A DNA stretch of 47,722 bases from Acidobacteriota bacterium. GTDB taxonomy: Bacteria; Acidobacteriota; Vicinamibacteria; Vicinamibacterales; UBA2999. A program made the position numbers and the translations under genes. Positions 9,101 through 40,347 of the stretch are shown one piece after another. The notes beneath the pieces were generated by a model. The model worked only from the letters and a program-made list of their open reading frames with translations. It ran no database searches and was not told where the DNA came from. Positions within the stretch are counted from its first letter, which is position 1, and each line of letters begins with the position of its first letter. Location of the stretch: positions 1 to 47,722 of the forward strand of contig JAUSDY010000079.1 in assembly GCA_030650395.1 (NCBI GenBank). The letters are read 5' to 3'.

Positions 9101-9740
9101 CAGCACTGTTCTTCGGCCCGGCGAGCACGAAGTGCGCATTCGCACCAACATGCGGATCTATTGGGATCGGATCGCCGTCGCCCGTCTCGCCTCGTCTCCC
9201 GAACCGGCAAGCAGCGTTGGCGTGTTGGCTGCGCGGCTGCACGAGCGTGGCTTCTCGCTGCCGCTCAAGCCCGACGGCAAGGAGCCGGAAACCTACGACT
9301 ATTCCCGCGTCACGGCCCGCTCTCCGTGGAAGACGATGGCCGGGCGGTTCACGCGTGCCGGCGATGTGGCGCAGCTACTGGCCGGCGCCGACGACATGTT
9401 CGTGATCTCCAAGCCGGGTGACGAGATCACCCTGAGCTTCGACGCGGCCACAGACGCGGCGTTACCCGCCGGCTGGACGCGGACGTTCCTGCTCATGTCT
9501 GACGGCTTCAGCAAGGAAATGGACATCAACTCGGCGAGCCCCGATCGCGTCGAGCCGCTGCCGTTTCATGCGATGACGCGCTATCCGCCGCCCGCCGAGC
9601 AGCGCTACCCGGACTCCGCCGCTCACCGTGACTATCGTGAGCGATACAACTCACGTGCGTGGTGGCCGCTCCTCCACCCCACCACGCAAAGTCCGCGTGG
9701 CGGGGGCCCCGGCCTGCCGCCAATTATTAAGAAAAACTAG
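6189..9740 (+). CDS. Large TPR / FG-GAP / ASPIC-UnbV protein
   Basis: A protein of about 1183 residues with an N-terminal signal anchor (VAVLGAVLIALALVAGSMGVF). Residues about 40-235 are TPRs, about 275-650 are FG-GAP/VCBS blades (DIDRNGSLD, DVDNDGLPD, DIDHDGDLD, DYDNDGLLD), and about 660-735 an ASPIC/UnbV domain. The remaining 440 residues begin at SCPFLYTWNGERFEFVTDFM and form a beta-rich region found in similar large proteins. The ATG follows the previous stop codon by one base; the upstream GTG at 6141 lies inside the previous gene and is rejected. The last 25 residues include a peptide made by a palindromic element (LHPTTQSPRGGGPG), so the native C-terminus may have been altered. The function is unknown; it is in the cytochrome operon. 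Confidence 0.85.
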   Translation: MRRVAVLGAVLIALALVAGSMGVFRRSPASPVAPAANADRERAYRSNNLGVALLERFNYEGAAGAFREALRIDPGVAIARLNLSIALYYLPDLEGAAREATAAASLLPSAPQPPYVLGLIARADNRDEDAMRFFERVRQMDPADVGTAINLAQILLQGRNYSEAIATLRPLVFDEPYNVTATYNLGLALSRAGQAEEGRRLMERSQVVRDSGYGTTLSNGYMEQGRYAEGVASTGAEPELVDGATPPAGFTPAPPLGVAATGDVTTSPFGRQYAPADLSDEGLRGIAAGLGGGLTLADIDRNGSLDLIVVSSGGQRVWRNDGRGAFTDVTSESGLAAAPAGAVGLGCVAADVDNDGLPDLFVLRYGASSLYHNDGNGHFSDVTARAGLAPYPSLPGAAALADIDHDGDLDIAIAGLADLRGSRALGRTLTFPDDFAAAPMQLHRNNGDGTFSDITRQAGFDALTRAMAILPTDFDNRRDIDLLIVNRTGAPLLFKNQRDGTFHNAAQDTGLAAAVRDGDRITSVATGDTNKDDAPDFVIGRAGAPSVLIRSDGRGRFTAETIEGTGDAVASQVFDYDNDGLLDVVSWSATGPRVIRNAGSRWVDVTPAATAGVAPSAEAVPLSSRMLAAADVNGDGAADMLAGSRGGSVTVWRNSGDARNAFLRVALRGRVSNRSGAGAKVQVRAGSLIARLETSASTPAAAPAGVLFGLGRRPGADVVRVLWPSGVLQAEFPVTQEITIEELDRKPSSCPFLYTWNGERFEFVTDFMGGGELGAWQPPGPASRPDPVEYVRIRGDQLRAKDGRYEIRVTNELEETLFVDRLQLLSVAHPIGVGVFPNEGMTVPPKPFRLYAVTDQASPVSAVDDHGHVVTAKLAHVDRQYPDDFQLKAFRGYADDHTLTLDLGAVTGPSVLLMTGWTDYAFSSDNLAAHQAGLALLPPALEVKDAAGKWRTAIADIGIPVGRPQTIVADLSTVLRPGEHEVRIRTNMRIYWDRIAVARLASSPEPASSVGVLAARLHERGFSLPLKPDGKEPETYDYSRVTARSPWKTMAGRFTRAGDVAQLLAGADDMFVISKPGDEITLSFDAATDAALPAGWTRTFLLMSDGFSKEMDINSASPDRVEPLPFHAMTRYPPPAEQRYPDSAAHRDYRERYNSRAWWPLLHPTTQSPRGGGPGLPPIIKKN
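9673..9712 (-). repeat. Palindromic element, family I, inside a coding region
   Basis: Forty bases with a hairpin stem (CCACGC, seven-base loop, GCGTGG, extended by the flanking CCCC and GGGG runs). It matches the complement of 39806-39845 at 37 of 40 positions. It is read in frame near the C-terminus of the TPR/FG-GAP protein as PTTQSPRGGGPG. Confidence 0.75.
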
Positions 9741-19528: not shown

Positions 19529-19674
19529 GGAGGATTGGGGTCAGGTCAAGGGAGGATTGGGGTCAGGTCAAGAAAATCACATTAAGGGATGACCGGGGAC
19601 AGGTCAGTGGCCGCTTTGGCACCTCGAGACCTGTCCCCAATCCTCCCAAACAGTGATTTTCTTGACCTGACCCC
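19529..19674. repeat. Long nested palindrome of GGGGTCAGGTC type
   Basis: Two perfect tandem 22-base copies (19529-19550, 19551-19572) lead into a large palindrome: 19559-19580 pairs perfectly with 19653-19674 (22 bp), and inside it 19595-19605 pairs with 19628-19638 (11 bp). It fills the convergent gap between the catalase relic and the TonB receptor. The wording resembles REP-type hairpins mobilised by RAYT (Y1) transposases; no transposase is in the window. Confidence 0.85.
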
Positions 19675-22649: not shown

Positions 22650-24053
22650 ATGCCTCGAGCCGTTGGTCTTCTCTTTCTCCTTACTGCACTTGCTGTCACC
22701 CCGCATGCCCAGGGCCGGCGTGTGGAGGCACCCCCTTCTTTGGGGGTGCCTGGCTGGTTGGATCCCTATCGCGCCAACGCCGACAAGCTGATCAAGGCCG
22801 CGACCGCCGACCAGTCTGCGTGGAACCGCCTCGCTGAGCTGACCGACACCTTCGGGCAGCGGATCAGCGGATCCGATAACCTCAAGCGCGCCATCGTGTG
22901 GGCCACGGATGCGATGAAGCGCGACGGCCTCGAGAACGTGCACACCGAGCGGGTGATGGTGCCGCGATGGGTGCGCGGCCAGGAAAGCATCGAGATGATC
23001 GAGCCGCCGCAGCATGTGCTGCCGATGCTCGGGCTCGGCGGCAGTGTCGGCACGCCCTCTGCAGGCGTCGAAGCCGACGTGATGGTGGTCGCCAACGGCG
23101 ACGAGCTCGCCAAACGATCCGCCGAAGTGAAAGGCAAGATCGTGCTCTTCAACGTTCCCTACACCAACTACGGCGAGACCGTGGCGTATCGCTCCGGCGG
23201 CGCGCGCATGGCCGCCCAGCACGGCGCGGTGGCGGCGCTGGTGCGATCGGTGGGTCCCACCGGGCTCCGCACGCCGCACACCGGCGGGATGAATTACGGC
23301 GACGAGCCGATCACCAGGATCCCTACCGCGGCGATCACCGCCGAAGATTCAAACCGCATTCAGCGGCTGGTCAACCGCGGCGTACGTGTCCGCCTCCGCG
23401 TGAAGATGGCGGCGCGCTTCGAACCCGACGTCGAATCCTTCAACGTTGTCGGCGAAATCCGCGGCAGCGAGAAGCCGGAAGAGATCGTGCTCGTCGGCGG
23501 GCACTTCGACTCGTGGGATCCGGGCACCGGCGCGTCGGACGATGGCGTGGGGTGCATGGTGACGTGGGAAGCGGCGCGCTTGATGAAGAAGCTGAACATC
23601 CGGCCGAAGCGGACCGTGCGCGTGGTGCTGTTCACCAACGAAGAGAACGGCCTGCGTGGCGGCAACGGGTATCGCGACGCGCACGCCCAGGAAGCCGCCA
23701 ATCACATCTTCGCGGTCGAGTCCGATTCGGGCGTATTCGCGCCGGGGCGGCTCGGCTTCAGCGGATCGGAAGCCGCACGGGCGCTGATCGCCGACATCGG
23801 CACGCTGCTCGCGCCGCTCGGCCTACAGGACATCACGTCGGGCGGCGGCGGCGCCGACATCGGCCCGATCAGCACGCTCGGCAAGGTGCCGATGATGGCC
23901 TACTCCGGCGATTCGACGAAGTACTTCACCATTCATCACACGCCGGCCGACACCGTCGATCGCATCGAGCCGCAGGAAGTGTCGCGCGCGGCCGCCGCAC
24001 TCACCGCGATGATCTATGTCGTTGCCGACATGCCGCAGGCGCTGCCGAAGTAG
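22650..24053 (+). CDS. Secreted M28 peptidase, carboxypeptidase Q-like
   Basis: A 467-residue zinc peptidase with signal peptide (VGLLFLLTALAVTPHAQG). Residues 26-34 (EAPPSLGVP) are encoded by a palindromic element. A PA-type insert covers about residues 130-250. Zinc ligands are visible: His285 in VGGHFDSWD, Asp297 in ASDDGVG, Glu331/Glu332 in FTNEENGLRGGN, Asp359 in AVESDSGVF and His430 in TIHHTPADT. The overall plan matches plasma glutamate carboxypeptidase and bacterial relatives, which release amino acids from dipeptides or short peptides. The PCu(A)C-like gene begins 5 bases after its stop, so they form an operon. Confidence 0.88.
   Translation: MPRAVGLLFLLTALAVTPHAQGRRVEAPPSLGVPGWLDPYRANADKLIKAATADQSAWNRLAELTDTFGQRISGSDNLKRAIVWATDAMKRDGLENVHTERVMVPRWVRGQESIEMIEPPQHVLPMLGLGGSVGTPSAGVEADVMVVANGDELAKRSAEVKGKIVLFNVPYTNYGETVAYRSGGARMAAQHGAVAALVRSVGPTGLRTPHTGGMNYGDEPITRIPTAAITAEDSNRIQRLVNRGVRVRLRVKMAARFEPDVESFNVVGEIRGSEKPEEIVLVGGHFDSWDPGTGASDDGVGCMVTWEAARLMKKLNIRPKRTVRVVLFTNEENGLRGGNGYRDAHAQEAANHIFAVESDSGVFAPGRLGFSGSEAARALIADIGTLLAPLGLQDITSGGGGADIGPISTLGKVPMMAYSGDSTKYFTIHHTPADTVDRIEPQEVSRAAAALTAMIYVVADMPQALPK
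22726..22751 (+). repeat. Palindromic element, family III, just after a signal peptide
   Basis: Ten-base perfect arms (AGGCACCCCC / GGGGGTGCCT) around TTCTTT. It is read in frame as EAPPSLGVP directly after the signal peptide of the M28 peptidase and resembles 17307-17330. Confidence 0.75.
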
Positions 24054-25990: not shown

Positions 25991-26063
25991 GAGGCAACCC
26001 CAAGAAGGGGTTGCCTCCACTACTGAGACTGCTGTGGAGGCAACCCCTTCTTTGGGGTTACCG
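25991..26063. repeat. Double palindromic element, family III, in a divergent promoter gap
   Basis: Two GGCAACCCC/GGGGTTGCC hairpins (25991-26017 and 26037-26061) joined by a spacer containing GAGACTGCTGTGGAGG. The whole arrangement recurs at 32031-32100. It lies between divergent starts of the cytochrome c'-like and S9 peptidase genes. Confidence 0.75.
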
Positions 26064-29880: not shown

Positions 29881-29887
29881 CTGGTGG

Positions 29888-32030: not shown

Positions 32031-32100
32031 GGGCAACCCCAAGGGGTTGCCCCCACAACTAAGACTGCTGTGGAGGCAACCCCTTCTTGGGGTTGCCTAC
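32031..32100. repeat. Double palindromic element, family III, in a divergent promoter gap
   Basis: Hairpins 32031-32052 and 32072-32100 joined by a spacer with AAGACTGCTGTGGAGG, the same composite seen at 25991-26063. It sits between the divergent starts of the M24 peptidase and the decayed TonB receptor. Confidence 0.75.
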
Positions 32101-37317: not shown

Positions 37318-37442
37318 CAGACAACTGATCTCAGATCTCAGATCTCAGATTTCAGATTGCAGATCAATTGAAGATCTAAGATCGAAGATCTGAGATTAAT
37401 CTGCAATCTGAGATCTGCAATCTGAGATCAGTCATCTGAGAT
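37318..37442. repeat. Low-complexity GATCTCAG/CTGAGATC repeat in a divergent gap
   Basis: About 125 bases of repeated AGATCTCAG and AATCTGAG words, rich in self-complementary GATC, fill most of the gap between divergent genes. Left and right halves are complementary. The promoters of both genes must lie in or beside it. Confidence 0.75.
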
Positions 37443-37472
37443 CGACCAGAAGCATGTAAAGTGGGGCACCAT

Positions 37473-38639
37473 ATGCGCACACACCTCTGGCGGCCGCTGC
37501 TCTTCATCGTCGCGATGGCCGGGCTGTCGGTCGCGGCGCGCGCTCTCGAGCCTGCATCGCAGGCCGGTCGTGACGGCCCACCGGTCTTCCAGGTCGATCC
37601 CTCCTGGCCGAAGATGCCGAAGCAATGGATTCTCGGCCAGGTGTCGGGCGTCGCCACCGATGCGCAGGATCACGTCTGGGTGCTCCAGCGCCCGTGGTCC
37701 CTCAATAGCGACGAGATCGCGAAGAACCCGGAAGCGGAATGCTGTTCCGCCGCGCCGCCGGTGATGGAGTTCGATTCAGCCGGCAACTACCTGCAGGGAT
37801 GGGGCGGCAAGCCGGCCGACGACAGCCGGGCCCCCAGCGCGGCAGCCGCGCTGGGGTGGAGCTATCAATGGCCGATGGACGAGCACGGCATTCACGTCGA
37901 TCACAAAGGCAACGTCTGGGTGTCGTCCGCCGGTGGCCCGCGCATGAGTGAGGGCAAGGAGAACTTCCTCCTCAAGTTCACGCGCGACGGGAAATTCCTG
38001 CTGCAGATCGGCCGCCGCGGGATGAGCAAGGGCAGCCTCGACACCGGCAACGTCAACAACGCCGCCGACATCTGGGTGCACCCGGCCACCAACGAGGTGT
38101 TCGTCGCCGACGGCTATCGCAACCGCCGCGTGATCGTGTACGACGCCGACACCGGGACGTTCAAACGCATGTGGGGCGCCTACGGCAACACGCCGGACGA
38201 TCAAGTGCCCCAGGTGTTCGCCGGTGATGGACCGGGCCCACCACAGTTCCGCACCGTGCACGGCATCAAGGTCTCGGCCGATGGCTTGGTCTACGTGAAC
38301 GATCGTCTCAACAACCGCATCCAGGTCTTTACCCTTGACGGAAAATTCGAGCGCGAGATCTTCATCGAGCGAAAAACGCAGCTGCTGGGGACCTCGTTCA
38401 ACACCGCGTTCTCGCCGGATCGCGATCAGCGCTGGCTCTATGTCGCCGACGCGGGCAACGGCCGCATCCACATCCTCAATCGCAAGAGCCTGCAGGAGGT
38501 TGGCGCGTTCGGACGGATCGGCCGTTATGCCGGCCAGTTTGTCTTCATGCACAACCTCGCCACCGACTCGCGAGGTAATTTGTACGTGAGCGAGGTCGGC
38601 ACCGGCCGCCGCGTCCAGAAGTTTGTCCTGCAGAAATAG
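37473..38639 (+). CDS. Secreted NHL-repeat propeller protein
   Basis: A 388-residue protein with signal peptide (LLFIVAMAGLSVAARA). It has NHL blades (SGVATDAQDHVWVLQRP, GIHVDHKGNVWVSSAGG, VFVADGYRNRRVIVYD, GLVYVNDRLNNRIQVF, LYVADAGNGRIHILNR, NLYVSEVGTGRRVQKF), forming a six-bladed propeller similar to peptidyl-hydroxyglycine lyase-like domains. Acidobacterial genomes carry many; their role is unknown. Residues about 116-132 (PADDSRAPSAAAALGW) are partly coded by a palindromic element placed between GGK and YQWPMDEHG, where relatives run directly from GWGG to the tryptophan strand. Start chosen at the signal peptide. Confidence 0.85.
   Translation: MRTHLWRPLLFIVAMAGLSVAARALEPASQAGRDGPPVFQVDPSWPKMPKQWILGQVSGVATDAQDHVWVLQRPWSLNSDEIAKNPEAECCSAAPPVMEFDSAGNYLQGWGGKPADDSRAPSAAAALGWSYQWPMDEHGIHVDHKGNVWVSSAGGPRMSEGKENFLLKFTRDGKFLLQIGRRGMSKGSLDTGNVNNAADIWVHPATNEVFVADGYRNRRVIVYDADTGTFKRMWGAYGNTPDDQVPQVFAGDGPGPPQFRTVHGIKVSADGLVYVNDRLNNRIQVFTLDGKFEREIFIERKTQLLGTSFNTAFSPDRDQRWLYVADAGNGRIHILNRKSLQEVGAFGRIGRYAGQFVFMHNLATDSRGNLYVSEVGTGRRVQKFVLQK
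37826..37860 (+). repeat. Palindromic element, family I, identical copy 1
   Basis: A 35-base element with arms CCCCAGCGCGG and CCGCGCTGGGG around CAG, identical base for base to 39253-39287. It is read as RAPSAAAALGW within the NHL protein. Confidence 0.9.
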
Positions 38640-38830
38640 TAGCTGTTGGTCTCTTGAACTGTTGAGCTCGTGATCTAATCTGCAGATCTAGTGAGCGGTT
38701 GATCTGTTGATCGATCTGTTGAACGCCCTTCCGCCAGGTAGCAAGATAGATCACGACCTCGAGAGATCAAAAGCTCGGTCGATTAGATCACCAGCTCACA
38801 ACCTCAACAGATCACCAGATGCTCGGCACG
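38640..38830. repeat. GATCTGTTGATC-rich low-complexity region
   Basis: The 218-base gap between the NHL and DUF2911 genes is packed with GATC-centred words (GATCTGTTGATCGATCTG, AGATCACCAG). The two halves are partly complementary. No gene is seen in it. Confidence 0.6.
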
Positions 38831-38857
38831 CTACCTGTTTAACGCTAAACTCTGTGG

Positions 38858-39538
38858 ATGAGCATTCGATCCGTGCTGTCGGTCATCGTGTCAGGTGCGG
38901 CCATGAGCGCCGCGTTGTTGGCCCAGGCCATCCCCGACGTGAAGTTGGTGCCGTCCCCCCAGGGCCAGGCCGCGATCCAACTGGGCGGGACATGGGACAA
39001 GACCGCCGACGGTCCGCGCTATCGCGATGGCAAGTGGATTGTCGTGGACTACGGCCGTCCGCTGCTGCGCGGGCGCACGGAAATCTTCGGGGCGGGCGCC
39101 GACTACGGCAAGACAGTCAACGCCGGCGCCCCTCTCTGGCGCGCCGGTGCCAACGACACCACACGGCTCACGACGCAGGCCGCGCTGCAGATCGGCGGCA
39201 AGACCATCGCGCCGGGCACCTACAACGTGTTCGTCGATCTCAAGCCCGGCAACCGGGCCCCCAGCGCGGCAGCCGCGCTGGGGTGGAACTGGACGCTGGT
39301 GCTCAGCACGCAGCCGGTGCAGGAGAAATTCGACCCGAACGACAAGGTCAGGTTGTCGGGCGCGACCAACTACGACCCGAAGTTCGATGTCCTTCGCGCG
39401 CCGATGACGGTGCGCGGCGGCGAGCCATCGATCGAGCAGTTTACGATCGGGTTCGTGAACGTCAGCGCGACCTCCGCCACACTCGTGATGTCGTGGGAGA
39501 AAACCGCCGCCTCGATCGATCTCAAGCTAGGGGTCTGA
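38858..39538 (+). CDS. DUF2911-family secreted protein
   Basis: A 226-residue exported protein (signal SVLSVIVSGAAMSAALLAQA). The DUF2911 pattern is plain: DYGRPLLRGRTEIFG, APLWRAGANDTTRLTT, ALQIGGKTIAPGTYNVFV and WTLVLSTQP. The family is secreted, beta-rich and of unknown function. Between FVDLKPGN and WNWTLVLS, where relatives have only a short turn, the peptide RAPSAAAALG is coded by a palindromic element identical to one in the upstream NHL gene. The stop codon TGA is itself part of a GGGGTCTGACCCC palindrome, so the native C-terminus may have been cut or extended by it. Confidence 0.82.
   Translation: MSIRSVLSVIVSGAAMSAALLAQAIPDVKLVPSPQGQAAIQLGGTWDKTADGPRYRDGKWIVVDYGRPLLRGRTEIFGAGADYGKTVNAGAPLWRAGANDTTRLTTQAALQIGGKTIAPGTYNVFVDLKPGNRAPSAAAALGWNWTLVLSTQPVQEKFDPNDKVRLSGATNYDPKFDVLRAPMTVRGGEPSIEQFTIGFVNVSATSATLVMSWEKTAASIDLKLGV
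39253..39287 (+). repeat. Palindromic element, family I, identical copy 2
   Basis: Identical over 35 bases to 37826-37860, in the same orientation and the same reading frame, 1.4 kb away in an unrelated gene. Confidence 0.9.
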
Positions 39539-39735: not shown

Positions 39736-40347
39736 ATGAAGCTCATCAGCACCGCCCTCGCCGCCATCCTCTGCCTCGCCGTGGCGGCCCCGGCCCTCGC
39801 GCAGCCCGGGGTCCCCGCCGCGCGGACTTTGCGCGGTGGGGTGGAGGAGCGCAGCTACAAGATCCTCGCGACCAGCAAGACCTCCACCATGCAGAAAGAA
39901 ATGCAGGAGGCCGGCGATGCCGGCTACCGCTTCGTGGCGGTGATGGGCGGCGAGACCGCGGTCGGCGGCAAAGAGGTGGTGGTGCTCGTCGAGAAATCGC
40001 CCGACGACAAGAACACCTACAGCTACCGCCTGCTTGCGACCAGCAAGACATCGACGCTGCAAAAGGAATTGCAGGAGGCGAGCGACGCCGGCTACCACGC
40101 CGTCGGCCAGACCGTCTTCGAAAGCATGTTCGGCGGCAAGGAAACCGTCGCCATCGTCCAGAGGAGCTCGGGCGCCGCCGGCGCCGCGCGCTACGAATAC
40201 AAGCTGGTGGCGACCACCAAGACTTCGACGTTGGAGAAGGAATTGAAGGAGCTGGCGGACGAAGGTTTCCAGGCGATCGACCTGACGGTCGGCAAAACTG
40301 CCATGGGCGGCAGCGAAATCGTCGTGATCACCCGCCGCGCAAAGTAG
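39736..40347 (+). CDS. Secreted protein of three tandem ~55-residue repeats
   Basis: A 203-residue exported protein (ISTALAAILCLAVAAPALAQ). After a short linker the same unit occurs three times: SYKILATSKTSTMQKEM, SYRLLATSKTSTLQKEL and EYKLVATTKTSTLEKEL, each followed by a helix with AGDAGY, ASDAGY or ADEGF and a strand pair with GGKEVVVLVEK, GGKETVAIVQR or GGSEIVVITRR. The unit resembles the small DUF4177-type beta-alpha-beta domain in layout, but I cannot confirm the family. The linker (PGVPAARTLRGGVEE) is made by a palindromic element. Two GGGGTCTGACCCC palindromes follow the stop codon. Confidence 0.75.
   Translation: MKLISTALAAILCLAVAAPALAQPGVPAARTLRGGVEERSYKILATSKTSTMQKEMQEAGDAGYRFVAVMGGETAVGGKEVVVLVEKSPDDKNTYSYRLLATSKTSTLQKELQEASDAGYHAVGQTVFESMFGGKETVAIVQRSSGAAGAARYEYKLVATTKTSTLEKELKELADEGFQAIDLTVGKTAMGGSEIVVITRRAK
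39806..39845 (+). repeat. Palindromic element, family I, inside a coding region
   Basis: The complement of 9673-9712 with three differences in 40 bases, two of which form a compensating pair in the stem (A-T to G-C). It codes for the linker after the signal peptide of the three-repeat protein. Confidence 0.75.

Follow-up and report, generated by a model that had tools for sequence, protein, structure and literature searches.

The 47,722-nt contig JAUSDY010000079.1 of an Acidobacteriota assembly (GCA_030650395.1; order Vicinamibacterales), hereafter the window, carries two neighbouring forward-strand genes, one for an NHL-propeller protein and one for a DUF2911 protein. The 35 nt at 37826–37860 in the first gene were identical to those at 39253–39287 in the second, in the same orientation, and encoded RAPSAAAALGW in both open frames. 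Matches to this 35-mer were absent from 100 dinucleotide shuffles of the window. An earlier note on this DNA had described the repeat as an identical 35-bp palindrome read in frame within two non-homologous genes. Identity, orientation and frame were borne out by comparison of the bases and open reading frames, and the lack of homology by Pfam, which assigned the host proteins to the unrelated NHL propeller and DUF2911 families. The proposed extent had to be corrected. The perfect palindrome comprised the inner 25 nt (12 + 1 + 12, with one central base), and the true unit was 34 nt, composed of CCGGG-C-CCCC, a stem-loop and GGGGTGG, which together with a 2-bp target duplication made 36 nt, or 12 codons. 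Each 35-mer is probably one copy of a tiny mobile element that is non-autonomous and consists of a strong hairpin between the conserved ends CCGGG(G)Y and TGG.

A search of 60 genomes for homologs gave a match to the NHL gene in 47 and to the DUF2911 gene in 25. The insert peptide was absent from all relatives that could be aligned over the site (29 of 29 genomes for NHL and 24 of 24 for DUF2911). The gap in same-genus orthologs was exactly 12 residues, at identities of 84–85% for NHL and 74–81% for DUF2911, and the two genes adjoined each other in G002, G005 and G006. At the DNA level, a single 36-nt gap was observed in all four NHL orthologs and in five of six DUF2911 orthologs, while the sixth (L147) was split by the aligner with the same net length. 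The element accounted for 34 nt of this gap, and a repeated dinucleotide, AG for NHL and AA for DUF2911, for the remaining two.

The genome to which the window belongs (G000; 5.41 Mb in 180 contigs, of which the window is contig 152) contained the palindrome with up to three mismatches at 38 places, compared with none for a reversed control pattern, and the 25-nt core was identical at 15 of them. One place with three mismatches (C1:12120) was set aside as unrelated, leaving 37 copies, which were termed family A. When the loop length was left free between 0 and 12 nt, 36 places matched, and the loop was 3 nt in every one. The 37 copies, found by the core alone, were preceded by CCGGG in 36 cases and followed by TGG in all 37; this conservation past the palindrome was unforced, because the search did not require those ends. 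A pattern of the ends only, CCGGG..CCCC(8–38)GGGGTGG, matched 84 places (reversed control, 0). Of these, 35 belonged to family A and 48 to a sister family, termed B; the remaining one, L073, was a doubtful match of 38 nt with weaker arms and was excluded from family B. Family B had a 39-nt body, the same ends as family A and a different stem (GCCACGCGGACTTTGCGTGG and variants), and was often arranged in tandem at 42 nt; two copies lay in the window (Table 1). The window copy at 9674 is absent from the junction, frame and coding counts, which were made on the other 83 places, analysed as loci. Arrays of a heptamer, (CTCAAGC)n, were found at several places in the genome, and 16 of the 27 family A copies of 34 nt lay in or near them (e.g., L002, L007, L013 and L015, outside genes).

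Table 1. Element copies, putative target duplications and host genes in the window.
Feature	Position	Strand	Remark
Family A element (34 nt), NHL-propeller gene, in frame	37826..37859	+	with duplicated AG adds SRAPSAAAALGW
Left AG copy, 2-bp target duplication, NHL gene	37824..37825	+	
Right AG copy, 2-bp target duplication, NHL gene	37860..37861	+	
Host gene 1, NHL-propeller protein	37473..38639	+	ATG at 37473 taken as start
Family A element (34 nt), DUF2911 gene, in frame	39253..39286	+	with duplicated AA adds NRAPSAAAALGW
Left AA copy, 2-bp target duplication, DUF2911 gene	39251..39252	+	
Right AA copy, 2-bp target duplication, DUF2911 gene	39287..39288	+	
Host gene 2, DUF2911 protein	38858..39538	+	
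Family B element (39 nt), third gene, in frame near N-terminus	39806..39844	+	after apparent signal peptide
Host gene 3, weak DUF4177 match	39736..40347	+	
Family B element (39 nt)	9674..9712	-	

The 83 copies yielded 28 in-frame candidates, of which 14 were used as one query within the genus; L011 was compared with an existing locus. Orthologs spanning the site were obtained for 13 further loci, 11 of which showed a clean gap and two an ambiguous one, so that 13 of 15 loci were clean when the two original genes were included. The gain was 12 residues in L008 (AMP-binding enzyme), L012, L030 (citrate synthase), L031 and L033, 13 residues in L057 and L058 (AMP-binding enzyme), 14 residues in L011, L053 and L067, and 25 residues in L037, a Rieske protein with two tandem copies (names by Pfam). 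The family B insert of host gene 3 added 14 residues that were absent from the G001 ortholog. The L067 fragment corresponded to phosphoglycerate kinase (PGK), and the best of the two PDB alignments shown lacked the 14 residues; the second enzyme (13pk) carried a natural insert of its own, different in sequence, in that loop. L053 (G000:C1:86896-86934) was identified as DXP reductoisomerase (DXR), and its 14 residues were absent in both PDB alignments shown. The DXR insert, of family B, was common to the three species G000, G003 and G005 (with L195 and L196) and absent from five other same-genus orthologs (L205, L211, L214, L215 and L216). Among the 13 clean loci it was the only insert found in another species, and it is therefore either older than the rest or at a site that was hit twice. 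The L053 copy appears to be an in-frame insert of some age that has been retained in a gene that is normally essential.

Comparison thus shows an inserted element whose sites stand empty in sister species, which is present in tens of copies and two subfamilies and lies in genes in either orientation. The earlier reading of the repeats as two insertions of a mobile palindrome, each kept open, is supported by the empty sites in relatives and by the many copies in the genome, several of them in frame in unrelated genes. The peptide was not seen at the same sites in distant genera, nor was the 35-mer confined to the window. To this reading it must be added that the repeat is one of two sister families with common ends.

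The stem was analysed in all sequences of the examined loci that fitted the ends pattern, 130 distinct elements in total; wobbles of either strand were allowed for the inner pairs. At least five of the six inner pairs were formed in 115 of the 130. Watson-Crick pairs made up 203 of the 231 inner cells in the 33 elements with a length of 35 nt, compared with a shuffle mean of 148 and maximum of 163, and in 40 elements of 39 nt the count was 236 of 280, compared with a mean of 174 and maximum of 188. By these counts, the predicted stems of the 35-nt and 39-nt elements covary. On the strand ending in GGGGTGG, the first inner pair was G.T in 56 cases versus A.C in none, T being nearly constant there. 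Pairs 2–6 were G.T in 12 cases versus A.C in two (p = 0.006, which serves as a guide only since related elements are not independent). Larger hand-picked element sets, in which non-palindromic matches were left out, gave the same stem picture. The wobbles were biased to one strand, and the hairpin therefore seems to matter in a single-stranded form, as single-stranded DNA (ssDNA) or RNA.

Within the order, the ends pattern matched in 45 of 60 genomes, nine of which had at least 10 copies; single matches are unsafe, because the reversed control also hit many genomes once or a few times. Across the phylum, 95 of 396 genomes matched and 13 had at least 10 copies, other classes with other stems included, although some single matches were plainly not palindromes. 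Elements with these ends but different stems, which also covary, occurred across Acidobacteriota. The exact family A pattern, searched over species genomes, was found in 57 stretches, 56 of which had recognisably acidobacterial titles and one of which was an actinobacterial bin (L313); records near the window may be missing from this set. A scan of viral contigs gave 26 stretches.

Copies within genes were found in both orientations and in several frames, and the encoded peptides, such as RAPSAAAALGW, HPSAAAALGA, GAPATRTLRGGVE, HPTTQSPRGG and PPHDAENASRGPR, were unrelated. The orientations and frames therefore indicate that the element acts at the level of DNA rather than as a motif of the peptide, and the unrelated peptides speak against a shared peptide function. 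Frame keeping cannot be demonstrated from the protein alignments alone, because open frames had been selected, and a test of coding on both flanks was fairer. In this test, 17 of 69 scorable copies were strong on both sides, 15 of them on one strand, and 13 of these 15 kept the frame (p = 3e-5). An earlier scoring of coding potential overcalled copies in the (CTCAAGC)n arrays, whose open frames follow from their composition, and was replaced by the orthologs and the two-flank test. Both consensus units were open in all six frames, which is unremarkable at this GC content (67% and 50% of random sequences with similar GC). Within genes, most copies preserve the frame, with a gain of 12–14 residues.

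AlphaFold models of the two host proteins were built with relatives, the NHL model being numbered from base 37494. In the DUF2911 model, with a mean predicted local distance difference test score (pLDDT) of 76, the insert (residues 132–143) lay between the strands 120–130 and 143–150, and residues 133–140 had a pLDDT below 50. In the NHL model (mean pLDDT 86), the insert (residues 111–122) lay between the strands 98–103 and 130–135, and residues 109–121 had a pLDDT below 50. Both inserts are predicted to be low-confidence loops between strands.

The junctions were compared in the own genome. The dinucleotide AR directly followed TGG in 25 of the 27 family A copies of 34 nt and five of the eight with 35 nt, and also in 44 of the 47 family B copies. 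The flanks matched over 2 nt in 15 of the 27 family A copies of 34 nt, compared with a mean of 10.2 when flanks were re-paired (0.35% of shuffles as high). In family B, they matched over 3 nt in 24 of 47 copies, compared with a re-paired mean of 8.0 (0 of 2000 shuffles as high), and outside tandems in nine of 27, compared with a mean of 4.7 (1% of shuffles). Several widths and offsets were tried in this test. The duplicated sequences were AG, AA or GA and AGA or AGG, in part of the copies. At empty sites readable at the DNA level, a target of C followed by AR fitted NHL, DUF2911, L012, L057 and L058. Nearly all copies in the own genome have AR directly after them, and a short duplication is often present on their left.

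Eight family B loci (L052, L059, L069, L077, L079, L082, L083 and L084; L082 with a shorter G run) were located in a palindromic repeat, GGGGTCAGACCCC. Their right junction was always followed by AGACCCC, and the bases repeated at the left numbered two (L077 and L079), three (L059, L069, L082, L083 and L084) or five (L052). The net lengths would be 41, 42 and 44 nt, if the repeat was whole before insertion. A fixed 3' junction together with a variable 5' side is the trace that two-step joining would be expected to leave.

The in-gene copies would be survivors whose body and duplication happened to sum to 36, 39 or 42 nt, lengths divisible by three, and whose GC-rich sequence was free of stops. 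The inserts would be translated as floppy surface loops, which would explain their position at turns. With less confidence, the copies may move as a single-stranded hairpin of DNA or RNA, the strand ending in GGGGTGG-3', and the 3' end may be joined first by an enzyme supplied in trans.

Several observations weigh against the mobile-element reading. Searches for the Y1_Tnp and RVT_1 families turned up no transposase accompanying the element. Duplications of the expected length were lacking in 12 of 27 family A copies of 34 nt, in all eight of those with 35 nt, and in 23 of 47 family B copies; L057, L058 and L067 had no duplication at the DNA level, and L030 and L067 had no C-AR target. The signal was weak when 58 elements from many genomes were pooled: 3-mer duplications numbered 8 versus 2.9 expected (maximum of 1000 shuffles, 10) and 2-mer duplications 3 versus 6.2 expected. 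The evidence for duplications is therefore that of the own genome. Among the 15 coding pairs, L038 and L061 shifted the frame, and the loci L054 and L066 aligned ambiguously. At the L057 site, one of the four orthologs shown (L223) had other residues. Furthermore, in many of the regions read from other classes the module lay within longer repeats, and there it is perhaps part of something larger. The L223 ortholog (G007:C31) carried the extra residues APLRQGYGGQ at the L057 site, perhaps another insert.

An ordinary repetitive extragenic palindrome (REP), moved as ssDNA by the REP-associated tyrosine transposase (RAYT; a Y1 HUH transposase) of its own or a related genome, would fit the hairpin with its wobble bias to one strand, and REPs are similar in size, likewise dispersed and in part intragenic (PMC3733652). 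A single Y1_Tnp gene was found in the own genome (L050, G000:C1:101355-104678), and a Y1 gene in G297 lay ~56 nt from an element copy. However, the own Y1 gene was bracketed by a different inverted repeat, GGGGTCAGGTCAAG..GGGACAGGTC, and not by the element, the ends of which lack the GTAG and CGTC tags. When Y1_Tnp was sought in 36 genomes, 49 loci at 48 distinct places were scanned, some in copy-free genomes, without a consistent link. An element copy was in the stretch at three of the 48 places, two of them 0.8–1.3 kb away, and the REPtron arrangement, a RAYT gene flanked by element copies, was not found. The genomes G158, G166 and G190 had 9–13 Y1 genes and no element match. RAYT was accordingly set aside as the mobiliser, and we regard an ordinary RAYT-moved REP as decidedly unlikely. 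A repeat similar to GGGGTCAGGTCAAG was also present in the window at 19529–19674.

An autonomous parent of the kind that drives miniature inverted-repeat transposable elements was not found either, the Y1 and RVT_1 families being those searched. Of the two families, RVT_1 was the second tried. Within the order, it was found in eight of nine genomes with at least 10 copies versus 11 of 51 with fewer (Fisher p = 2e-4, kinship ignored), and in seven of eight versus 11 of 51 when the own genome was left out. The corresponding counts were 11 of 18 versus 8 of 42 at a cut-off of 5 copies and 9 of 11 versus 10 of 49 at a cut-off of 8. Outside the order, the link was weak (eight of 15 copy-rich versus two of seven copy-poor genomes). 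An element copy was in the stretch at none of 27 reverse transcriptase loci, and the reverse transcriptase of the own genome was a partial match near a contig end. By their motifs, four of the five reverse transcriptase sequences that were read look like those of group II introns, and the fifth (L383) like an RT-Cas1. The association with copy number serves as a lead only.

A bolder form of the mobile-element reading, which we consider rather unlikely, would make the family a third phylum-wide superfamily of intragenic hairpins beside the GTAG and CGTC REPs. It would move through a hairpin of ~40 nt, as RNA or ssDNA, with the 3' end joined between C and AR and the target filled in to leave a variable duplication on the left. 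A host or intron reverse transcriptase would act in trans, and loops of 12–14 residues would still be fed into enzymes. If true, the elements would be among the smallest retroelement-like parasites.

The peptides or hairpins could alternatively be selected functional motifs, such as a sorting tag behind signal peptides or an RNA control hairpin. Family B copies in L011, L051, L066, L070 and L078 directly followed an apparent signal peptide (ending in AQ) in the same frame, and the DXR copy was common to three species. The former probably reflects a target preference for CAG, and an effect on secretion is possible. The occurrence of both orientations, several frames and unrelated peptides, the presence of copies in PGK and citrate synthase, and the sharing of just the DXR insert among the 13 clean loci stand against such a function, and a functional motif is very improbable. 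In addition, Rfam gave no match above the gathering score that overlapped the element in 10 loci; one sub-threshold match overlapped its edge by 5 nt (L189). Matches to the Acido-Lenti-1 RNA (RF01687) were located near element copies in L175 and L189, in other classes.

Skipping of the inserts in translation, which would leave proteins of normal length, has a precedent in Magnusiomyces mitochondria, where inserted blocks are bypassed at 81 positions in coding genes (PMC5009743). Bypassing needs no multiples of three, yet 13 of the 15 strong two-sided coding copies kept one frame, in which they differ from the Magnusiomyces inserts. The net lengths of 41, 42 and 44 nt at the GGGGTCAGACCCC-borne copies, again if that repeat was whole, also point away from it, and skipping is hardly credible here. 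An assembly or binning artefact could be suspected in a genome of 180 contigs and has virtually no probability, given the separately deposited genomes that contain the family and the DXR copy at the same site in three of them.

Other repeats were also present in the window. The stretches just upstream of host genes 1 and 2, at 37334–37443 and 38700–38830, were low-complexity arrays with units resembling GATCTCAGA and GATCTGTTGA. Three other palindromic repeat families were found, GTGGGGACAAACCTTTAGGTTTGTCC at 29884, 42733, 44462 and 46771, TGTGGAGGCAACCCC.. at 22721, 26005–26062 and 32041–32098, and AGGGGTCTGACCCCGTC at 39529 and 40385.

The nearest known systems are the Rickettsia palindromic elements (RPEs), which are not known to have a transposase, and the GTAG and CGTC REPs. 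RPEs are palindromes in unrelated protein genes that leave the frame intact and form solvent-exposed inserts (PMC3767692 and PMC10969869). They are ~100–150 bp in Rickettsia, and RPE-4/6 are placed among the CGTC-tagged REPs in PMC3733652. Like these elements, and those of Wolbachia (WPE), the present palindrome lies in frame in unrelated genes (13 of 15 clean gaps, 13 of 15 in frame). It differs from RPEs in its length of 34–39 nt, GC richness, occurrence in Acidobacteriota, other ends, and empty sites in sister species. The GTAG and CGTC REPs are described in the same source (2013) as hairpins of 20–40 bp in many copies, some of them intragenic and adding residues; the CGTC REPs have no linked transposase, and some REPs are inserted in other palindromes. 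The element resembles them as a dispersed hairpin of 20–40 bp (84 places in the own genome) and is unlike them in having no unpaired GTAG or CGTC tag (its ends being CCGGG(G)Y and TGG), in its short target duplications, and in not adjoining RAYT genes. The suggestion that it may be an undescribed RPE-like, protein-inserting element therefore holds for its identity, which is apparently new; the principle is already on record beyond Rickettsia in those REPs (PMC3733652).

Yeast mitochondrial GC clusters offer a likeness in form. GC42 is described in PMC4478555 as 42 nt, GC-rich and dispersed, with AG flanks as a putative target duplication, and a title cited there names tandem arrays. Both are short GC-rich palindromes with an AG duplication, which the element has in part of its copies; the GC clusters are mitochondrial, unlike the element, and the shared traits may be convergent. 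Closer in phylum are the acidobacterial TIRYT repeats of Koribacter, Terriglobus and Granulicella. These are inverted repeats that include one repeated family, and terminal inverted repeats of this kind share GGGGWSAS (PMC3733652). This motif resembles GGGGTCAG beside the own Y1 gene and not the element, although the phylum is common to both. In the text of that paper, figures excluded, 'Acidobact' occurs once, for TIRYT transposases and not for tagged REPs. A REP survey, RepRanger, tabulates three Acidobacteriota genomes (PMC12306157), and palindromes of the phylum have therefore already been counted in bulk. No description of the element was recognised in the open literature, searched by titles and the beginnings of abstracts, with supplements and most subscription papers outside the search.

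The element was apparently mobile in the recent past, is ordinary in principle and, as far as searched, appears new in identity. A 2002 title by Ogata reportedly called protein-coding palindromes a unique feature of Rickettsia. Such palindromes, first tied to Rickettsia and then to some REPs, are now joined by an apparently undescribed family in a distant, GC-rich phylum. Its copies in core enzymes (PGK, DXR and citrate synthase) amount to natural loop-insertion experiments, and the junction pattern makes the movement of transposase-less palindromes directly testable. The family also calls for caution, as an element may have left its scar wherever unrelated proteins share a peptide or an alignment shows an odd loop.

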